Shown: piece after piece, positions 26,526-36,223 of the stretch
How positions within the stretch are numbered: the first letter of the stretch is position 1
Layout of the letters: each line of letters begins with the position of its first letter
NCBI GenBank assembly: GCA_040754375.1
Contig: JBFMCT010000033.1
Coordinates: 1 to 36,223, forward strand
Direction of reading: 5' to 3'
Origin: Actinomycetota bacterium
GTDB taxonomy: Bacteria > Actinomycetota > Acidimicrobiia > Acidimicrobiales > AC-14
DNA: 36,223 bases
Program-made: the position numbers and the translations under genes
Notes under the pieces: model-generated
What the model was told of the DNA's origin: nothing
Database searches by the model: none
What the model saw: only the letters and a program-made list of their open reading frames with translations

Positions 26526-28259
26526 ATGGGGATAATGCAGGAGGACGTGGCCCGGGTGAGGGCGGCGTCGGACCTGGCGGGCATCGCCGGGGAGCACATC
26601 GCGCTGAAGCGGGTGGGCCGGCGCTACCAGGGGCTGTGCCCGTTCCACGCCGAGAAGTCGCCGTCGTTCTCGGTCAACGCGGCCGAGGGGCTGTATTACT
26701 GCTTCGGGTGCGGGGCCAAGGGCGACGTGATCACCTTCGTGCGGGAGGTGGAGCACCTCGACTTCGCCGAGGCCGTGGAGCGGCTGGCCGCCCGGGCGGG
26801 GATCAGCATCCGCTACGACGACGCCTCGCCCGCGGCCGCGGCCGAGCGCAAGCGGCTGGGCGTGCTGCGCGACGCTTTGGCCCGGGCCGTGGAGTGGTAC
26901 CACGAGCGCCTGCTGTCGGCGCCCGACGCCGTACCCGCCCGCCACTACCTGCGGGCCGAGCGAGGCTATGGCAGCGAGGTGGTGCGGGCCTACAAGCTGG
27001 GCTGGGCGCCTCAGTCGGGCGACGCCCTGGGCCGGGCCCTGCGCCTGCCCGACGACGTGCTGCGCGACGCCGGGCTGGGGGCCGCCTTCCGGGGCCGGCT
27101 GCTGTTCCCCATCTTCGACTCCAAGGGCGACCCGGTGGGGTTCGGGGGGCGGGCGCTGCCCGGGGGGCCCGGCCCCAAGTACCGCAACTCCCCCGAGACC
27201 GCCCTCTACAAGAAGAGCCGGGTGCTCTACGGGCTGAACTGGGCCAAGGGGGCCATCGTGGCGGCCGGCGAGGTCGTGATCTGCGAGGGCTACACCGACG
27301 TGATCGGGCTGCACCAGGCCGGGGTGGGCCAGGCCGTGGCCACGTGCGGGACGGCCCTGGGCGAGGAGCAGGTGCAGATGCTCAAGAACTTCGCCCGCCG
27401 GCTGGTGCTGGCCTACGACGCCGACGCTGCCGGCCAGGCGGCCGCCGAGCGGGTATACGAGTGGGAGCGCAAGTTCGACATCGACGTGGCCGTGGCCGCC
27501 CTGCCCGCCGGCCAGGACCCCGCCGACCTGGCCCGGCGCGACCCCGAGGCCCTGAAGGGGGCCGTGGCCGAGGCCCGGCCGTTCCTGGAGTTCCGCCTGG
27601 GGCGGGTGCTGGCGGCGGCCGACGTCCGCTCGGTGGAGGGCCGGGCACGGGCGGCCGAGGCCGCGCTGGCGGTGGTGGGCGAGCACCCCAGCGAGCTGGT
27701 GCGGGACCAGTACGTAATGGTGGTGGCCGACCGTACGGGCATCGACCCCGACCGCCTGCGGGACCGGCTGGGGCGGAGGGGACGGGGGGCGCCGGGTACG
27801 CGGCCGGGCGGGGGGCCGCCGCCGGCCTCGTTCCTGCGCGCCCGTGACCCGCACCGGGCCGAGGTCGAGGCCTTGCGGGTGGCCGTGCACCGTCCCGAGG
27901 AGGTGGCCGACCGGTTGCACGAGGCCCTGTTCGAACCCGGGGTGGGGAGGCGGGCGTATGTAGCCCTGGCCTCGTCCGAGACCCTCCACGACGCCATCGA
28001 GGCAGCCGAGCCGGGGGCCGCCGCCCTGCTCCAGAGACTGGCCGTGGAAGACGACGACCCCGACCCAGACGGCGTGCTGGCCGCTCTGGCCGACAAGGCG
28101 GCCCGGGCCGCGCTGGCCGACCTCGAGGCCCGGGGGGCGACCACCGAGATCGCCTGGCTCAAGCCGACCATCGAGGAGCTGGGCGAATCGGCGACGAGGC
28201 CGGCAGCCACCGACCGGTTGGTACGCTGGCTGGCAGAACGGCCCGGGGGAGAAGCATGA
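26526..28259 (+). CDS. dnaG: DNA primase
   Basis: Makes RNA primers for replication. The CHC2 zinc module is complete: C38, H41, C59 and C62. The TOPRIM core has [18 protein letters not shown] (Glu as metal ligand), with [15 protein letters not shown] downstream. The C-terminal helicase-interacting region is Ala/Arg-rich and poorly conserved, as usual. The 577-residue length is a little short for the family. ATG 26526 matches the family N-terminus; ATG 26535 is three codons in. The stop overlaps the ATG of an 11-codon ORF that leads into rpoD, so primase and sigma factor form an operon, a classic macromolecular-synthesis arrangement. Confidence 0.96.
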
Positions 28260-28291
28260 AGTCCGGAGAGCGCCCCAGCGCAGACCAGTGA
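28256..28291 (+). CDS. 11-codon coupling ORF between dnaG and rpoD
   Basis: ATG at 28256 overlaps the dnaG stop (ATGA). The ORF reads 11 codons and its TGA overlaps the rpoD GTG (GTGA). GGGGGAG at 28246-28252 provides a good ribosome-binding site for it, whereas rpoD has none within 10 bases except GGAGAG further upstream. It may serve to hand ribosomes from dnaG to rpoD rather than to make a functional peptide. It could also be chance. Confidence 0.35.
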
Positions 28292-30021
28292 GCGACGACG
28301 CCGAGAGGACGGGGGTCGAGGCCCGCCCAGTTGGCGCCGACGTCGAGCTGTCGGTGCCGGTAGGGGTCCCCACCGAGGACTTCGGGCGTCTGCTGGAGGC
28401 CGGCCGCCAGAGCCGGGCACTGTCGCTCGACGACGTGATGGCCGTGCTGCGCCACGTCGAGCTGACCCCCGACGTGATCGACACCGTGCGCCACCGCCTG
28501 GCCGCCGAGGGCATCGAGCTCGACGAGTCCGTCGAGGAGGCCGACCCCGTCGAGCTACTGATGACCCTTCCGGCCGAGGAGGGGCCGGGGCTCTCCGTTC
28601 TGGCTGGCGAGGTCCCCGCCGGCGACGCGGGCGAGGACGAGCCCGGCCGGGCAGTGGCTCTCGACGTTGGCGGACCGGCACTGGCCGGCGGGCGCGACCC
28701 CCTCGACGACCTCAGGGACCGCGACCGCCTCGACGACCGCGACCGTCTCGTCGGCGACCTCGATCACCGGGATCGCCTCGACGGGCGCGGCCGCCTCGAT
28801 GCCGACGACGGCCTGATCGACGACGGCGAACGCCTCGACGGCCTCAGCGGCCGCGACCGCCTCGCCGACAGCGGCGGCCTGATCGACGACCTCGATGACC
28901 GCGGCCGCCTCGATGGCGGCGGCGGCGTCGATGACCCGGCCGGCCCAGCGCCCGCCGGCACCGTGGCCGGGCGCGCCGGGGCGGTTGGGGGCGGGCCGGC
29001 GACGGCGTCCCCGGCTTCGGGCACCGGCCAGTCGCCGGCCGCGGCCGCCGCGGCCGCCGCCCGTGAAGCCAACCGGGTGGGCGGGGCGGCCGCTGACCCG
29101 GTGCGGACCTATCTCAAAGAGATCGGCAAGGTCGACCTGCTCGACGGCGCCCAGGAGGTCGGGCTGGCCCGGCGCATCGAAGCCGGCCAGGAGGCCGAGA
29201 CCCTCCTGGCCGCCGAGGAGCTGCTGGAGGGCCTGGGGGCGCAGGCGTCCGACGCCCGGATGCGGGCCTTGCGTCGCCTCAAGGCCGACGGCGAGGTGGC
29301 CAAGCGTCTGCTGATCGAGGCCAACCTCAGGCTGGTGGTGTCGATCGCCAAGCGGTACATGGGCCGGGGGCTGATGTTCCTCGACCTCATCCAGGAGGGC
29401 AACCTCGGGCTCATCCGGGCCGTGGAGAAGTTCGACTACACCAAGGGCTTCAAGTTCTCGACCTACGCCACGTGGTGGATCCGCCAGGCCATCACCAGGG
29501 CCATCGCCGACCAGGCCCGCACCATTCGCATCCCCGTCCACATGGTCGAGACCATCAACTCTGTATTGAGGGTCCAGCGTCAGCTACTCCAGGAGCTTGG
29601 ACGTGAACCTACGGTCGAGGAGCTGGCCGTCAAGGTGAACATGGCCCCCGCCCGGGTGCGGGAGATCCAGCGCATCGCCCAGGAGCCGGTGTCGCTCGAG
29701 ACCCCGGTGGGCCAGGAGGACGACAGCCAGCTCGGCGATTTCATCGAGGACGTGCAGGCCGTGGCCCCGGCCGAAGCCGCCGCCCGGGCCATGCTCACCG
29801 AGGCCGTGCTCGAAGCCCTCGAGCAGCTCACCGACCGCGAGCGCAAGATCGTCCGGCTGCGCTTCGGCCTTGAGGACGGCCAGGTGCGGACCCTCGAGGA
29901 GGTCGGCCGGGAGTTCGGCGTGACCCGGGAGCGGATCCGCCAGATCGAGGCCAAGACCCTGGCCAAGCTCCGCCACCCCATGCGCAGCCAGAAGCTGCGC
30001 GACTACCTCGACGAGGAGTGA
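28288..30021 (+). CDS. rpoD: Primary RNA polymerase sigma factor (RpoD/SigA type)
   Basis: 577 residues. A region 1.1-like helical segment (about 25-90) is followed by a repetitive Asp/Arg/Leu-rich insert at 138-220 and an Ala/Gly/Pro linker. Region 1.2 begins near 270 ([16 protein letters not shown]). Region 2 has the conserved [16 protein letters not shown] and FDLIQEGN-like core (here FLDLIQEGN) with [10 protein letters not shown] for -10 recognition. Region 4 ends with the helix-turn-helix [17 protein letters not shown]. All parts needed for promoter recognition are present, so this is the housekeeping sigma factor. The GTG start is coupled to the short ORF before it. The 3' end overlaps the YtxH-like gene by 19 bases. 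Confidence 0.95.
28699..28947 (+). repeat. Degenerate CGCCTCGA-based repeat inside rpoD
   Basis: The core CGCCTCGAC or CGCCTCGAT recurs at irregular 18-60 base steps, and the 15-base word GGCCTGATCGACGAC occurs twice, 66 bases apart. It encodes a DRDRLDD/DGRGRLD-like charged stretch. The pattern suggests growth by slippage. Confidence 0.6.
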
Positions 30022-30395: not shown

Positions 30396-30437
30396 CGTTC
30401 TGGGGGTACCCGCCTCGGACGGATGCCAACCGGCACG

Positions 30438-30511
30438 CTCCGGGGGTGGGACTCGAACCCACAACAAACGGCTTAACAGGCCGCTGCTCTGCCGAATTGA
30501 GCTACCCCGGA
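30438..30511 (-). tRNA. tRNA-Asn (GTT)
   Basis: A complete 74-base cloverleaf on the minus strand: acceptor TCCGGGG/CCCCGGA, D-stem GCTC/GAGC, anticodon stem GCGGC/GCCGT with loop CTGTTAA, five-base variable loop, T-stem GTGGG/CCCAC with loop TTCGAGT, and G as discriminator base. The anticodon GTT is at 30475-30477 on the plus strand (as AAC). The CCA end is not encoded. Confidence 0.95.
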
Positions 30512-30576: not shown

Positions 30577-30649
30577 GGGCCCGTAGCTCAGTGGTTAGAG
30601 CAGCGGACTCATAATCCGTCGGTCGCAGGTTCGATCCCTGCCGGGCCCA
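30577..30649 (+). tRNA. tRNA with CAT anticodon (elongator Met, or Ile2 read after lysidine modification)
   Basis: A complete 73-base cloverleaf: acceptor GGGCCCG/CGGGCCC, D-stem GCTC/GAGC, anticodon stem GCGGA/TCCGT with loop CTCATAA, variable loop CGGTC, T-stem GCAGG/CCTGC with loop TTCGATC, discriminator A. It lacks the three G-C pairs of initiator tRNA. The D-arm and variable loop resemble tRNA-Ile(CAT) of other bacteria as much as elongator tRNA-Met, so identity is left open. CCA is not encoded. Confidence 0.93.
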
Positions 30650-30973
30650 CGCACGTACCTCCCTTTGGGTCCATCACTCCAACACTTTGCGAAGTCGCTG
30701 GTCAACGGGAGGTAGAGGGTTGGGGGTAGGGCGGGGCGCGGCACCAACAGGTGCTTGCTCCCCCTGGGGCCCGGTGGTAGACCTCGCCTGCTTCGCGGGA
30801 CGTGTCGCGCGCCCGCACCAACCTTGTGGAGGATCGAGCGGGGCCCATGACCACAACGGAGACAACCGCCGGGGAGGTGCGGGCCACGTCGCCCGCCGCG
30901 CCCCGCCCGGGTCTGCGGTGATGGGCGCCACCTTCGCCCCGGGGGGCGGGACGGCGTGGTCCCCCGGCCGCCT
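30650..30973. other. Gene-poor leader region of the giant repeat gene
   Basis: 324 bases with no convincing gene. TACCTCCC (30656-30663) pairs perfectly with GGGAGGTA (30707-30714), and GCACC AACA GGTGC forms a small hairpin near 30743-30756. A 24-codon ORF starts at 30847 (MTTTETTAGEVRA...), without clear support. The region probably holds the promoter and a structured leader of the giant gene, but no -10/-35 pair stands out and I recognise no riboswitch. Confidence 0.4.
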
Positions 30974-33900
30974 GTGAGCCCCAAGGCCGCTCCGGTCCTG
31001 TTCACCCCTATCTCCCGGCCGCCGCAGTCCGTCTTCCGGGACCTGACGGCGCTGGTGGGGGCCGTGCTGTGCACCCTTCTCGTCTTCCTCGGGGCCGGCC
31101 CGGCGGTAGCCACCTCGGAGCCCGCCAACACCCCCACGACGGGCACGACCCTGGCCAACACCACGACCGGCACCACCCCTTCGGCCACGGCCAACGCGGG
31201 CGCTTCACCCCAAGCGACCAGCGCCGCCACCGGCCCGGCCTCGGCCAGCGCCAACGCCAGCAGCAGCGCCAACTCGGGTTCGAGCTCGTCGGCGTCGTCG
31301 CAGTCGGGGGCCACCGGGAACGCGTCCAACACCATCAACGGCGTGGTCGTCGGGGGCGACGGGGGCGCCGGGGGCACGGCCTCGCCCGTGGCCGGGCCGG
31401 GCGGGGCGGCCTCCAACAACGTGACCGGCGCCGTCGTGCCCGGTTCGTCGACCTCCACCGGCGGGGCGAGCATCGGGGCGGCCACGGCCAACGGCGGGGC
31501 GGGCGGGGCGGCCAGCGTGGTCCTCAGCCCCACGGCCCAGTCGGGTAGCAGCGGGGCGGCCACGGCCCAGTCGTCGGCCTCCAACAGTGGGGCCACGGGC
31601 AACGCCGTCTCCACGGCCATCGCCAGCCCCAGTGCCACCTCGGGTAGCTCGGGCGGCACGGGCGGGGCCCCGGCGGGCGGGGCGTCCAACCCCTTCGCGG
31701 TCAACACCGGCGTGCTCGGGATCGCCCCCGTCAACAACCGGCCGGTGAGCATGGTCTCCAGTTCGGCCGACTCCGGCGGCAGCCCCTTCGGCGGGGCGGG
31801 CACGGCCGCCGGCCCTCCCGGCCACGGAGGGGGGGCAGCCAGCGGCCAGGCCGCCACCGGGGGGCCGACGGGGTTCGGCGGCTTGGTGGCGCCCGGGGGC
31901 CCGGCACCTACCGCCAGCACCACTACGAACAACAGTGGGGCCAACCACAACAACCCGGCTGGGCCGGCGGGTGGGCCCAACGGCTCGGGGCTGACCCCCC
32001 TCGGCGGCCCCGGGGCCCCGGTCGCCCCGGCCCTGCCCACGGCCCCGGTGGCGCCCGGCCCAGCCGACGCGGCCGCCGGCAAGGTGACCCCGACGGGGGC
32101 CAACGCCCACGGCACCACGGCCGGCCAGGGACCAGCCAGCTCCAGCGGGCCGGTGGCCACCCTGGGCTCCGCCCTGGGCAAGGGCAACTCCGGTTCGACG
32201 TCGGGCTCGGGCGCGGCCTCGGGCACCACGGGTTCGGCCACCAACACGTCCTCGGTCGGCGCCCTCGGGGGCAACGGCGGGACGGGGGGCACGGCCGGCC
32301 CGGCCACCGCCGGGGGCGGGGACGCCACGGCGGCCGTGTTCGGCACCATCGGGCCCTCGGGTGCCAGCCCGTCGTCCACGGGAGGGGCCTCCATCTCGAC
32401 GGCCGACGCCAATGGCGGCATGGGCGGGGCGGCCACGGTCACCCTCGACGGCCCGACGGCCGTGAGCGGCAGTTCGGGGGCGTCCACCGCCCATTCCAGT
32501 TCCACCAACTCGGGGGCCACGGGCGACGCCGTGTCGTCGGCCACCTCCAGCCCGTCGTCGGTGTCGGGCGCCACCGGGGCCACGGGCGCCACCGGGGCGA
32601 CGACCTCGGCGCCGTCGGCCACCAACTCCGCCCCCCTGGGCAACGTGTCGGCCGCGGGCGGCGACGCCGCCTCGGGGGCATCGGGTAACTCGGGGGCCAC
32701 AGGCGGGGCCAGTGCCTGGGGCCAGGCCGAGAGCTCGGCCAACAGCGGCGCCCAGTCGGCCACCACCTCTCTTTCAGGCACGACCGGCGCGGCGTCCAAC
32801 TTCACCGACGTGGTGGTCACCGGCGGAGCGGGTGGGGCCGGGGGCACGGCCCTGCCGGTGGCCGGCCCCGGGGGCTCGGCCGCGGCCACCGTCATGGGCG
32901 GCCTCGGGGGCAGCGGCGGCGTGGGCGGGGCCATGGCCGGCGGAGCGGGTGGGGCGGCGGGGGCCGGAGGCTTCGGCCTGGGCAACCCCGGCGCGCCCGG
33001 AGGAACGGGAGGGACGGCCGGCCCGGTCGTGGGGGACATCGCCATCGGCGGCGTGGGCGGCCCCGGCGGCCCCGGCGGCCTGGGCGGGGACGGGTTCGGC
33101 GCACCGGGCGGGGCGGGCGGGGCCGGGGCCGGGGCCACGGCCGGCAACGGGTCGGCGGGCGGCGCCGGGGGTACGGCCTCGGGCAGCCCGGTGGCCCGGG
33201 GCGGGGCGTCCATCGCCAGCGGCACGGCTGACGGCGGGGCGGGCGGGGCGGCGTCGTTCAGCGCGGCGCCGGTGGCCACCACCGGGGCCTCGGGGGCCGC
33301 GACCGGCCAGTCCAGCGCCTCCAACACCGCGGCCACGGGGGCGGCGTCGTCGTCGTCGAGCTCCAGCCCTGTGGCCCAGAGCGGACGTTCGGGCGGCACG
33401 GGCGCCACCGGTGACGCCGATGCCAGCCCCACGGCTGCCAACTCGGGCGTGCTCGGCTCGGCCTCGGCCACAGGCGGGGACGCCACCTCGGGCCCCTCGG
33501 GCGACAGCGGGGCCACAGGCAGTGCCACGGCCATCGGTTCGGCCATCTCGAACGCGTCCACGGGCGCGACCGCCGAGTCGACGGCCCTGTCGGGTGCCAG
33601 CGGCGAGGCCAGCAACGAAACGTTCGCAACCGTGGCCGGCGGCACCGGGGGCAGCGGAGGCTGGGCTGCCCCTGTGGCCGCGGGCGGCGGGGCCGCCATC
33701 GCCGAGGTGGCGGGCGGCGCCGGGGGGACCGCAGGCGCGGGCGGGGCCGCCACCGGGGGCACGGGGGCGGGCGGCGGCGCCGGCGGTGACGGGTTCGGCG
33801 GCCCGGGCGGCGCGGGGGGTGACGGTGGCGGGGCAGGAGCGGTCACCTCGGTCGACGGCACGGCCGTCGGCGGCCTCGGGGGCGCAGGTGGCGCAGGCGG

Positions 33901-36223
33901 CGCCGGGGGCCTGGGCCTCGGGGGCGAAGGCGGGACCGGAGGCGAGGGCGGGCCGGCCACGGGGGGCGACGGCGCGGCGGGCGGCGAGGGTGGCGCGGCC
34001 TCGGGCAGCCCGGCGGCCACGGGCGGGACCAGCGTGGCTTCCGGCTCGGCGGCGGGCGGCGCCGGCGGGGCGGCGTCGATCGTGCTCGACGGGCCCCACG
34101 CCGCCTCGGGCCGCTCGGGTGCCTCCGACGCCCAGTCCTCGGCCACGAACACGGGCGAGACGGGCGCGGCCTGGTCCACCGCCGTCTCCAGCCCGACGGC
34201 CACCTCGGGCCCTTCGGGGGCCACGGGCGCCACCGGGGCGGCCACCGCCGGCCCGACGGCCACCAACACGGGGGTGCTGGGCACGGCCAGCGCGACCGGC
34301 GGGGCGGCCACGTCGGGCCCCTCGGGTGGGTCGGGGACCACGGGCGACGCCATCGCCGAGGGCGAGGCCACTGCCCGAGCGTCCACCGGTGCCCACGCCG
34401 GCTCGGCGTCGGAGTCGGGGGCCACGGGCTCGGCCACCAACACCTCTTTCATGAACGTCGTGGCCGGCTCCGGCGGGGACGGCGGCTCGGCCCAGCCCGT
34501 GGCCGGCCCGGGCGGTGACGCCCTCGCCACGGTGTCGGCCGGGGCCGGCGGAGCCGGTGGCCAGGGCGGGGCAGCCACGGGCGGGCCGGGTGGGGCCGGC
34601 GGTACTGGCGGCACGGGCCTGGGTGGCCCGGGCGGGGCGGGCGGGCCCGGGGGCAGCACCGGTGACGTCACGGCCGTGGCCGACATGGCCGACGCCGTGG
34701 CCCTGGGGGGGACCGGGGGTGACGGCGGGGCCGGGGCGGGCGGCGGCTTCGGCATCGGCGGCCAAGGCGGCGCCGGCGGCGCCGGCGGAGCTGGCGCTGG
34801 AGGGAACGGGGGGGCCGGGGGCGTAGGGGGGACCGCCTCGGGCAACCCGACGGCCACCGGCGGCACCAGCACAGCGACCGGCGAGGCGGGCGGGGGGGCT
34901 GGCGGGGCGGCCAGCCTCACCGCCGCCCCGTCGGCCCGCTCGGGCGAGTCGGGAGCCTCCGCGGCCCGATCGAGCTCGACCAACACGGGGGCCACGGGGG
35001 CGGCCACGGCGGCCGCCACCTCGGCGCCGAACGCCACTTCGGGCCCGTCGGGCGCCACCGGGGCGACCGGCGCCGCCACCTCGGCCCCCACGGCGTCGAA
35101 CACGGCCACCAATGGCACGGCCACGGCCACCGGTGGACCGGCCACCTCGGGCCCCTCCGGCGCCTCGGGGGCCACGGGCGAGGCCCGGGCCACGGGGACG
35201 GCCGCGGCGGCCGCGTCCTCGGGGGCGGACAGCGTCTCGGGCTCGTCCTCGGGTGACACCGGGGTGGCTGCCAACCTGACGATCGCCACCGTGGTCGGCG
35301 GGGCCGGGGGCGCGGGCGGGTCGGCCGACGCCATCAGCGCGGGCGGGGGGACGGCCGCCAGCACCGTGTCCGCCGGCAGTGGCGGCTCGGGCGGTCCGGG
35401 CGGGGCAGCCGCCGGCGGGGCGGGCGGCGCGGGTGGCGAAGGAGGGACAGGAGCAGGCGGTTTCGGCGGCGACGGAGGTGCGGGCGGCGCATCGGGCGCG
35501 GTGGTCGCGGCCGGCCAGGACGCCGGCTCGGTGGTGGCCGTCGGCGGGACGGGCGGCGCGGGCGGGAGCGGGAGCGAAGGCGGCATCGCTGTCGGGGGTG
35601 CTGGCGGGGCCGGGGCCGGGGGCGGCCAGGCCACCGGCGGCGAGGGCGGGGCCGGGGCGGCGGGCGGCCAGGCTGCGGGGGACCCGGTGGCCGTGGGCGG
35701 CGCGTCGATCACGTCGTCGGCCGCCGGTGGGGGCGCAGGGGGCTCGGCCCGGGCCGACTTCGGCAGCCCGGACGCCCGGTCGGGGGCCTCGGGGCCGTCC
35801 GACGCCCAGTCGTCGGCCACCAACACGGCCAGCACGGGTGGGGCCACGGCCACGTCCACTTCGGCGCCCACGGCTGTCTCCGGCCCCTCGGGGGCCAGCG
35901 GCTCGACGGGAGAGGCCTCTTCCGGCCGCCAGGGTGCCGCCACCTCGGGAGCGTCGGGGGCGACGGGCACGACCGGCGACGCCACTGCCACCGGGGGCGC
36001 GACGGCGACGGCCGCCTCGGGGGCGCACTCGGGTTCGGCGTCGACGACCGGGGCCACGGGCGACGCGTCCAACTTCAGCGACGCGCTGGTCACGGCCGGC
36101 AGCGGCGGGGCCGGGGGCGAGGCCGTGGCTCTGGCCGGGCCGGCCGGGGCCGCCGTCGCGGGCGTCGTCGGGGGCGCGGGCGGCAACGGGGGCGAGGGCG
36201 GGGCGGCCACCGCGGGTGCGGGC
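30974..36223 (+). CDS. Giant secreted Gly/Ala/Ser/Thr-rich modular repeat protein (3' end outside window)
   Basis: The frame is open for 1750 codons to the window edge. The N-terminus has a basic stretch and a hydrophobic core (TALVGAVLCTLLVFLGAG) with likely cleavage after AVA near residue 47, so it is exported. The rest is Gly/Ala/Ser/Thr with almost no Lys or Arg and only scattered Asp/Asn. Two modules alternate. Module B (GGASI...GGAGGAAS...AQSSA-N-GATG) begins at 31460, 32381, 33200, 34022, 34859 and 35699. Module A begins with A-x-N and then a collagen-like or PGRS-like glycine block. There is no PE or PPE domain and no visible anchor in the window. The start GTG 30974 (or GTG 30956) lacks a ribosome-binding site. 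A cell-surface, adhesive or structural role is inference. The opposite strand is also open over most of this stretch, purely from base composition. Confidence 0.8.
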   Translation, partial: MSPKAAPVLFTPISRPPQSVFRDLTALVGAVLCTLLVFLGAGPAVATSEPANTPTTGTTLANTTTGTTPSATANAGASPQATSAATGPASASANASSSANSGSSSSASSQSGATGNASNTINGVVVGGDGGAGGTASPVAGPGGAASNNVTGAVVPGSSTSTGGASIGAATANGGAGGAASVVLSPTAQSGSSGAATAQSSASNSGATGNAVSTAIASPSATSGSSGGTGGAPAGGASNPFAVNTGVLGIAPVNNRPVSMVSSSADSGGSPFGGAGTAAGPPGHGGGAASGQAATGGPTGFGGLVAPGGPAPTASTTTNNSGANHNNPAGPAGGPNGSGLTPLGGPGAPVAPALPTAPVAPGPADAAAGKVTPTGANAHGTTAGQGPASSSGPVATLGSALGKGNSGSTSGSGAASGTTGSATNTSSVGALGGNGGTGGTAGPATAGGGDATAAVFGTIGPSGASPSSTGGASISTADANGGMGGAATVTLDGPTAVSGSSGASTAHSSSTNSGATGDAVSSATSSPSSVSGATGATGATGATTSAPSATNSAPLGNVSAAGGDAASGASGNSGATGGASAWGQAESSANSGAQSATTSLSGTTGAASNFTDVVVTGGAGGAGGTALPVAGPGGSAAATVMGGLGGSGGVGGAMAGGAGGAAGAGGFGLGNPGAPGGTGGTAGPVVGDIAIGGVGGPGGPGGLGGDGFGAPGGAGGAGAGATAGNGSAGGAGGTASGSPVARGGASIASGTADGGAGGAASFSAAPVATTGASGAATGQSSASNTAATGAASSSSSSSPVAQSGRSGGTGATGDADASPTAANSGVLGSASATGGDATSGPSGDSGATGSATAIGSAISNASTGATAESTALSGASGEASNETFATVAGGTGGSGGWAAPVAAGGGAAIAEVAGGAGGTAGAGGAATGGTGAGGGAGGDGFGGPGGAGGDGGGAGAVTSVDGTAVGGLGGAGGAGGAGGLGLGGEGGTGGEGGPATGGDGAAGGEGGAASGSPAATGGTSVASGSAAGGAGGAASIVLDGPHAASGRSGASDAQSSATNTGETGAAWSTAVSSPTATSGPSGATGATGAATAGPTATNTGVLGTASATGGAATSGPSGGSGTTGDAIAEGEATARASTGAHAGSASESGATGSATNTSFMNVVAGSGGDGGSAQPVAGPGGDALATVSAGAGGAGGQGGAATGGPGGAGGTGGTGLGGPGGAGGPGGSTGDVTAVADMADAVALGGTGGDGGAGAGGGFGIGGQGGAGGAGGAGAGGNGGAGGVGGTASGNPTATGGTSTATGEAGGGAGGAASLTAAPSARSGESGASAARSSSTNTGATGAATAAATSAPNATSGPSGATGATGAATSAPTASNTATNGTATATGGPATSGPSGASGATGEARATGTAAAAASSGADSVSGSSSGDTGVAANLTIATVVGGAGGAGGSADAISAGGGTAASTVSAGSGGSGGPGGAAAGGAGGAGGEGGTGAGGFGGDGGAGGASGAVVAAGQDAGSVVAVGGTGGAGGSGSEGGIAVGGAGGAGAGGGQATGGEGGAGAAGGQAAGDPVAVGGASITSSAAGGGAGGSARADFGSPDARSGASGPSDAQSSATNTASTGGATATSTSAPTAVSGPSGASGSTGEASSGRQGAATSGASGATGTTGDATATGGATATAASGAHSGSASTTGATGDASNFSDALVTAGSGGAGGEAVALAGPAGAAVAGVVGGAGGNGGEGGAATAGAG
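31322..36223 (+). repeat. Two-module tandem repeat, period about 816-840 bp
   Basis: Module A starts (the Ala of A-x-N): 31322, 32237, 32792, 33608, 34433, 35267, 36065. Module B starts (GGAS/GGTS): 31460, 32381, 33200, 34022, 34859, 35699. Module B to the next A is 411, 408, 411, 408 and 366 bp in units 2-6, but 777 in unit 1. Module A is 138 and 144 bp in the first two units and 408, 414, 426 and 432 in the next four. All spacings are multiples of 3. Copies are similar at protein level but well diverged at DNA level. Confidence 0.75.

Follow-up and report, generated by a model that had tools for sequence, protein, structure and literature searches.

Chaplins are small amyloid-forming proteins. 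Among them, ChpA-C are substrates of class E sortases, enzymes which recognise LAXTG in soil and freshwater actinobacteria, and carry the LAXTG signal, as set out in the sections of PMC5148588 that concern them. The polyglycine-II sandwich is described in the parts of PMC7830552 devoted to it as two groups of antiparallel helices, six in all, each with a length of three to four triplets; in the same parts PGRS is modelled as polyglycine-II sandwiches, and the fold is linked to ice binding and serves receptor binding in phage S16. The locus that we set beside these systems is the 5' part of a gene for a giant repeat protein, lying at the end of a window of 36,223 nucleotides (the window being the whole stretch of DNA analysed), which corresponds to contig C33 of a 3.51-Mb draft genome assembled into 105 contigs. 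We find that it belongs to a real repeat family of giant and small exported-looking proteins; the kind of protein is known, and the family and the variant seen here are new as far as these searches go.

The plus-strand frame is free of stop codons for 1750 codons, from 30974 to 36223, the first possible start listed being the GTG at 30956 and the GTG at 30974 the one chosen in the preliminary description. Contig C33 itself stops at 36223, the same point as the window, so the giant gene is incomplete at its 3' end. Gly, Ala, Ser and Thr make up 0.75 of this frame. At its N-terminus (30974–31111, plus strand) is a probable signal peptide with an Arg-containing n-region, a LTALVGAVLCTLLVFLG core and an AVA end; judged by eye, and with the start codon uncertain, the hydrophobic core and AxA end are like those of a Sec signal peptide, and the N-termini of relatives are similar. 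The antisense frame is also open, and the coding frame was therefore tested. Third codon positions of the plus frame were the most variable in all four pairs of family members and all six pairs of window units compared, with 102, 61 and 418 changes at positions 1, 2 and 3 between two relatives and 66, 68 and 136 between window units 4 and 5. The plus frame is the coding frame, and the at least 1750 plus-strand codons of the preliminary description stand. The antisense ORF (1871 aa; window 30595–36210, minus strand) is open across the whole giant gene and is probably a by-product of GC-rich Gly/Ala codons.

A conserved upstream neighbourhood starts with dnaG, for DNA primase (26526–28259, plus strand), and continues with a sigma-70 family factor gene of rpoD type with regions 1.1 to 4 (28288–30021, plus strand), tRNA-Asn(gtt) (30437–30511, minus strand) and, just 5' of the giant gene, tRNA-Met(cat) (30577–30650, plus strand). 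In G006, a genome of another genus, the order is dnaG, the sigma factor gene, tRNA-Asn (here co-oriented with rpoD), tRNA-Met, a spacer of ~1 kb with one possible small ORF, and then a giant family gene of at least 2972 aa, which lacks Gly blocks and is cut at the contig end. By eye, a second sequence of that genome, G006:C76, is likewise similar to the beginning of window unit 1, so that strict orthology with the post-tRNA giant gene remains putative. In two genomes where the family was not found, G001 and G002, both tRNAs lie beyond rpoD and no giant gene was seen in the stretches examined.

The protein had been described as an alternation of two modules, A and B. Measuring A from A-x-N to GG[AT]S, with the GGAS at residue 470 as the anchor in unit 2, gives A lengths of 138, 144, 408, 414, 426 and 429 bp for units 1–6 and B lengths of 777, 411, 408, 411, 408 and 369 bp. 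The 408–411 bp reported for B in four of six copies is thus reproduced, as is the jump in A from about 140 bp to above 400 bp, except that the last A is 429 bp and not 432 bp. The steady rise of A (408–414–426–429) is real and small, amounting to 7 codons over four units. A-x-N was said to start every A and is found at the start of all seven window units. The first B is long because a Pro/Gly/Asn-rich non-repeat linker (31745–32116, plus strand) follows unit 1.

The alternation itself did not survive comparison with other family members. When twelve units from six other genes were combined into a profile, it matched the window protein with 475.8 bits, and no match was reported for any of the controls, which were 200 shuffled versions (100 full and 100 local), the protein read in reverse and the antisense translation. 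By this profile, A plus B is one conserved, family-wide unit of ~175–180 aa, with a Gly insertion in units 3–6 of the window; the giant, exported-looking protein of strict architecture that had been described holds, export again being judged by eye. Two alternating modules were rejected on the 65 units from other genes of the same and related genomes, in which A and B parts are joined in one unit of 152–180 aa; these belong to a set of 72 which required a continuous profile match, in which window units were cut by hand and from which 16 partial matches were excluded before lengths were counted, a selection favouring uninterrupted units. The partial matches include spans of ~240–265 aa in C21, G006:C29 and G007:C201 that repeat profile positions ~37–120 or 53–104; these look like duplicated A parts and not like GGX blocks.

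All window units are on the plus strand. Unit 1, placed by the unit profile (31205–31744, 180 aa), and unit 2 (32117–32665, 183 aa) lack the Gly insert, and units 3 (32666–33481, 272 aa), 4 (33482–34306, 275 aa), 5 (34307–35140, 278 aa) and 6 (35141–35938, 266 aa, with a shorter B) each have a Gly block. Unit 7 starts at 35939 and runs for 95 aa to 36223 (53 aa from A-x-N to the contig end), the contig ending inside the beginning of another Gly block. Units have a triplet-periodic start (SGxSGxSGxTG), a periodicity matched by 3 of 5000 shuffles, and one short GGxGGxGG run. Other segments look like alternating conserved small residues, weakly above shuffles: period-2 conservation was matched by 199 of 5000 at positions 13–50 and by 1433 of 5000 at positions 108–150. 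Alignments of 6 and 22 sequences contain invariant N, Q, P and G columns.

The unit alignment attributes the length of units 3–6 (266–278 aa) to a block of ~100 aa at one insertion site, some 20 residues after the short GGxGGxGG run, which is retained. The four blocks lie at 32897–33190 (unit 3; 98 aa, 50% Gly), 33713–34012 (unit 4; 100 aa, 54% Gly), 34538–34849 (unit 5; 104 aa, 52% Gly) and 35372–35686 (unit 6; 105 aa, 50% Gly), all on the plus strand, and every one has six GGX runs of 2–5 triplets each. A 3+3 split of the runs is clear in units 5 and 6 and looser in units 3 and 4; in units 5 and 6 the runs are at near-identical offsets, three either side of a central Val/Ala-rich stretch. 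In every block the number of residues within GGX runs was higher than in any of 5000 shuffles, the run count of six alone was reached by 66 to 391 of 5000, and the lag-3 autocorrelation of Gly was 0.32–0.55. Independently of the selection of units, GGX density sets the window gene apart: its richest 100-aa stretch has 69 GGX residues, and every other ORF of the set reaches 24 or fewer. The PGRS-like composition reported for these blocks is borne out, and no PE domain or other Pfam family was found at E ≤ 1. A Gly/Ala-rich stretch at the contig end of G006:C76 starts from about the same site of the unit, so the insert is perhaps not unique to the window gene.

As an anatomy of sequence, six GGX runs in all four blocks agree with the six helices of the polyglycine-II sandwich. 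AlphaFold2 (pTM 0.18) gave a mean pLDDT of 42.7 for window unit 4, with 58–62 at best within the Gly block, and of 30.4 for a complete two-unit relative; the confidence of these models is too low to display a fold or to speak against one, the proposed beta-solenoid included. Foldseek with the low-confidence window model returned no matches.

At E ≤ 1 the window protein and four paralogues from the same genome contained no Pfam family and none of the five matched NCBIfam; neither of two proteins matched PHROGs, and sequence searches of the PDB gave no match. For the proteins tested, the unit therefore matched none of these collections, the described repeat families in them included. A mobile origin was considered and rejected, there being no relatives in viral contigs, plasmids or phages and no PHROGs match for either protein. 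Of the same-genome paralogues, those on C1 (398 aa) and C4 (397 aa) have two units each and that on C21 has 1896 aa, and C11 carries a long gene (1099 aa) together with the start of a second family gene. Long members of the family span about 1360 to more than 2970 aa, mostly of tandem units.

A search with the 398-aa paralogue matched 8 of 41 genomes, namely 8 of the 10 of its own taxonomic family and none of the 31 elsewhere in the order. An alignment as query found the family at E ≤ 1e-8 in at least 7 of 248 genomes of the order and at least 1 of 396 of the phylum (its own), in searches that scored up to five, or three, candidates per genome, could miss distant relatives, and did not have the window's own gene among the matches listed. 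Among the genomes searched, the repeat family is, by these sequence comparisons, restricted to one family of uncultured Acidimicrobiia. Named relatives account for 12 loci, from nzgw82, nzgw83, nzgw84, AVDCRST_MAG10 (Acidimicrobiales), CP_BM_ER_R8_7, CP_BM_ER_R9_26 and Actinobacteria bacterium isolate 24, and their records read Acidimicrobiia or Actinobacteria. Three-unit orthologues of G004, G006 and G008 keep the identity of their units by position. The members are most likely located at the surface, a location that had been proposed as possible for the window protein. We found no literature on giant proteins, sortase or surface proteins, or glycine-rich repeat proteins of Acidimicrobiia. 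The family also bears on the quality of draft genomes: nine listed family ORFs reach contig ends and run past them.

The ends of family members vary. Four short members (L013:8671-9864, L029:5407-7152, L031:5915-7663 and L037:385-2130) end in hydrophobic residues (such as IVFFPFLLFFFI or MVFGTW) and have neither a sortase motif nor a basic tail. At the other end, the N-termini of three long members (L011:5845-7100, L032:6620-8000 and L036:5183-6300) have repeated NxTIAIGxGxAxGTAIGG-like motifs with a few Cys, of which none was seen by eye in the window gene; Pfam gave nothing above noise for these extra N-terminal regions.

Four relatives that match the unit profile end in LAxTG followed by a hydrophobic stretch and basic residues. 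The motifs are LAFTG (G007:C201), LATTG (G007:C87 and G009:C420) and LAATG (G003:C233); the last of these has the tail and GSTASG-type repeats in a single frame with half a unit (E 6.7e-14). The two LATTG frames extend 69 residues beyond the motif, compared with 32–44 in the other tails. The curated LPXTG_anchor model gave a best score of 11.0 against a cut-off of 15.9, for one of the five tested, and none of the curated anchor models reaches its cut-off. The window genome has four sortases (PF04203), and one of the three tested, encoded on contig C5, exceeds the NCBIfam cut-off for class E (173.6 against 160).

A search of the same genome with the tails of these relatives brought out two orphan C-terminal ends that begin where a contig is cut (C85:1-354 and one at the end of C21), both with LARTG, a hydrophobic stretch and RRR, and the genome also has two N-terminal halves that lack ends, C33 and the second gene of C11. 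G006 again has two of each, with the cut N-terminal halves on C29 and C76 and LARTG ends at the starts of contigs C24 and C16. Conserved downstream genes link G000:C85 and G006:C16. The 400-base ends of C33 and of the orphan contigs share no k-mer of 15 or longer, and none of 26 genomes searched has a C85-type gene and the best rpoD match on one contig. The unit profile found no repeat unit in the orphan LARTG ends (best E 0.012). Directly downstream of the LARTG ends are small exported-looking proteins with GSTASG or GSVASGCS repeats and Cys (G000:C85:442-921, L093; G000:C21 near 53322–53860, minus strand; G006:C24, L094; G006:C16, L095), which have their own tail of LALTG, a hydrophobic stretch and Arg; two of them tested against Pfam had no match. 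As the orphan ends lack the repeat unit and adjoin small proteins with similar tails, they could belong to other proteins. The two LARTG regions of this genome (L093:1-359 and L011:13844-14202) match at 99% of positions over 359 bases before diverging, a pattern suggestive of recent duplication or gene conversion. That the window gene would end in a LARTG tail is what we infer from counting ends in a draft genome.

The reading that we prefer, tentatively and at rather less than an even chance, is that the window encodes the N-terminal portion of a giant surface protein, probably anchored by a sortase, that acts as a stalk or adhesin and has inserts resembling polyglycine-II sandwiches. The C-terminal LAxTG, hydrophobic segment and Arg cluster, seen in four relatives, would be present in the window gene also, and this LAxTG tail would serve a class E sortase in linking the protein to peptidoglycan. 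After export, the tandem units would extend from the wall as a long stalk, on which the six-run Gly blocks of units 3–6, with the anatomy of a polyglycine-II sandwich some 20 residues past the short run, would sit as periodic rigid beads; the putative bead loops might be displayed for adhesion to surfaces or other cells. For the window protein, the wall anchoring and the stalk or adhesin function are both inferred.

A doubtful alternative, though the best of those we weighed, is a disordered, hydrated brush, in which the Gly/Ala/Ser/Thr units do not adopt a defined fold and nothing counts but their length and composition; it might serve to space, to coat the wall or to prevent fouling, perhaps with sugars on Ser/Thr. 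The low-complexity composition, with its high content of these four residues (0.75), would suit a brush, as would the lack of a confidently predicted fold. A brush, however, has no need of position-specific conservation or near-constant length, and for this reason its pure form is disfavoured: unit length is nearly constant, N, Q, P and G columns are invariant in both alignments, and orthologous short members retain the identity of units 1, 2 and 3 by position across genera.

A little less probable again is a protein that is secreted without an anchor and builds a matrix or a silk-like fibre outside the cell. Silks contain a mix of alternating and GGX segments, and the mix of such segments in the present family recalls them. 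None of the four complete members of this genome (C21, the long gene of C11, C4 and C1) has L[AP]xTG in its last 150 residues, and members of 397–583 aa lack a LAxTG end, most of them ending in hydrophobic residues. Against an anchorless fibre are the LAxTG tails of the four unit-bearing relatives, and the two contig-edge LARTG ends, which equal in number the two unfinished N-terminal halves. Very improbable, to our mind, is an ice-binding or anti-freeze surface protein like the snow flea antifreeze protein, a polyglycine-II bundle: the six-run GGX anatomy of the inserts and the link of the fold to ice binding, in the passages of PMC7830552 on the fold, speak for it, but the fold is putative here, with no sequence match to any solved structure, and the same passages have it giving receptor binding in phage S16, so that the fold does not give the function. 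It is barely credible that the plus frame is no gene and is open as a side effect of GC-rich codon structure, the real gene being the antisense frame (1871 aa), for although the latter is open over nearly the same stretch, it is the plus frame that varies most at third codon positions in all the pairs, that exclusively matches the unit profile and that has the signal-peptide-like N-terminus.

Returning to the anchored stalk with sandwich-like inserts, uninterrupted and interrupted units coexist in one gene and its paralogues, and hence offer a before-and-after view of the emergence of a PGRS-like, possibly polyglycine-II domain. Window units 3–6 cluster in a midpoint-rooted unit tree (support values were not looked at), which suggests that the insert arose once and was then duplicated along with its unit. 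In this tree unit 7, in which another Gly block begins, groups with a C11 unit and apart from units 3–6, and mean unit identity is 0.43 within the window gene compared with 0.48 to C4; on these comparisons the two observations do not fit neatly with a single origin. The block may have been copied from the short GGxGGxGG run, or from elsewhere. An unlikely scenario is that, in a clade-restricted giant wall-anchored family, six-helix polyglycine-II sandwiches arose in the unit, perhaps from GGxGGxGG, and multiplied with their host unit to give a stalk with regularly spaced PGRS-like beads. If true, a PGRS-type domain would have originated independently of the mycobacteria, and paralogues in this genome would still preserve the uninterrupted state.

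Of the known systems, the YadA-type trimeric autotransporters touch the family at its tails: the GSVASGCSxA or GSTASG repeats that precede several LAxTG tails presumably resemble, by eye, YadA-type head repeats. In contrast to those, the tail proteins tested had no Pfam match up to E 10, and their repeats are outside the part of the gene held by the window. The sortase-anchored surface proteins of actinobacteria are alike in the LAxTG, hydrophobic and Arg tails of four relatives and of the orphan ends, and in the class E sortase of the window genome; unlike theirs, the family tails pass no curated anchor model. The chaplins are small, whereas the long members of this family reach about 1360 to more than 2970 aa of mostly tandem units.

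The PE_PGRS proteins of mycobacteria share with the window protein Gly/Ala-rich PGRS-type blocks of GGX runs and are likewise a class of exported, surface-exposed proteins. They differ in that the window protein has neither a PE domain nor any Pfam family, that its Gly blocks are discrete inserts within a longer non-PGRS unit, that relatives of its gene have LAxTG ends, and that a search of 395 other genomes of the phylum, at E ≤ 1e-8 and with a limited number of candidates scored per genome, gave no match to its unit. Beside the polyglycine-II sandwiches of the snow flea antifreeze protein and the tail-fibre adhesin of Salmonella phage S16, the window blocks lack a sequence match to solved structures and a confident predicted fold; they are alike in their six GGX runs of 2–5 triplets, with the 3+3 arrangement clearest in units 5 and 6, and unlike in being embedded, repeatedly, in another repeat unit.
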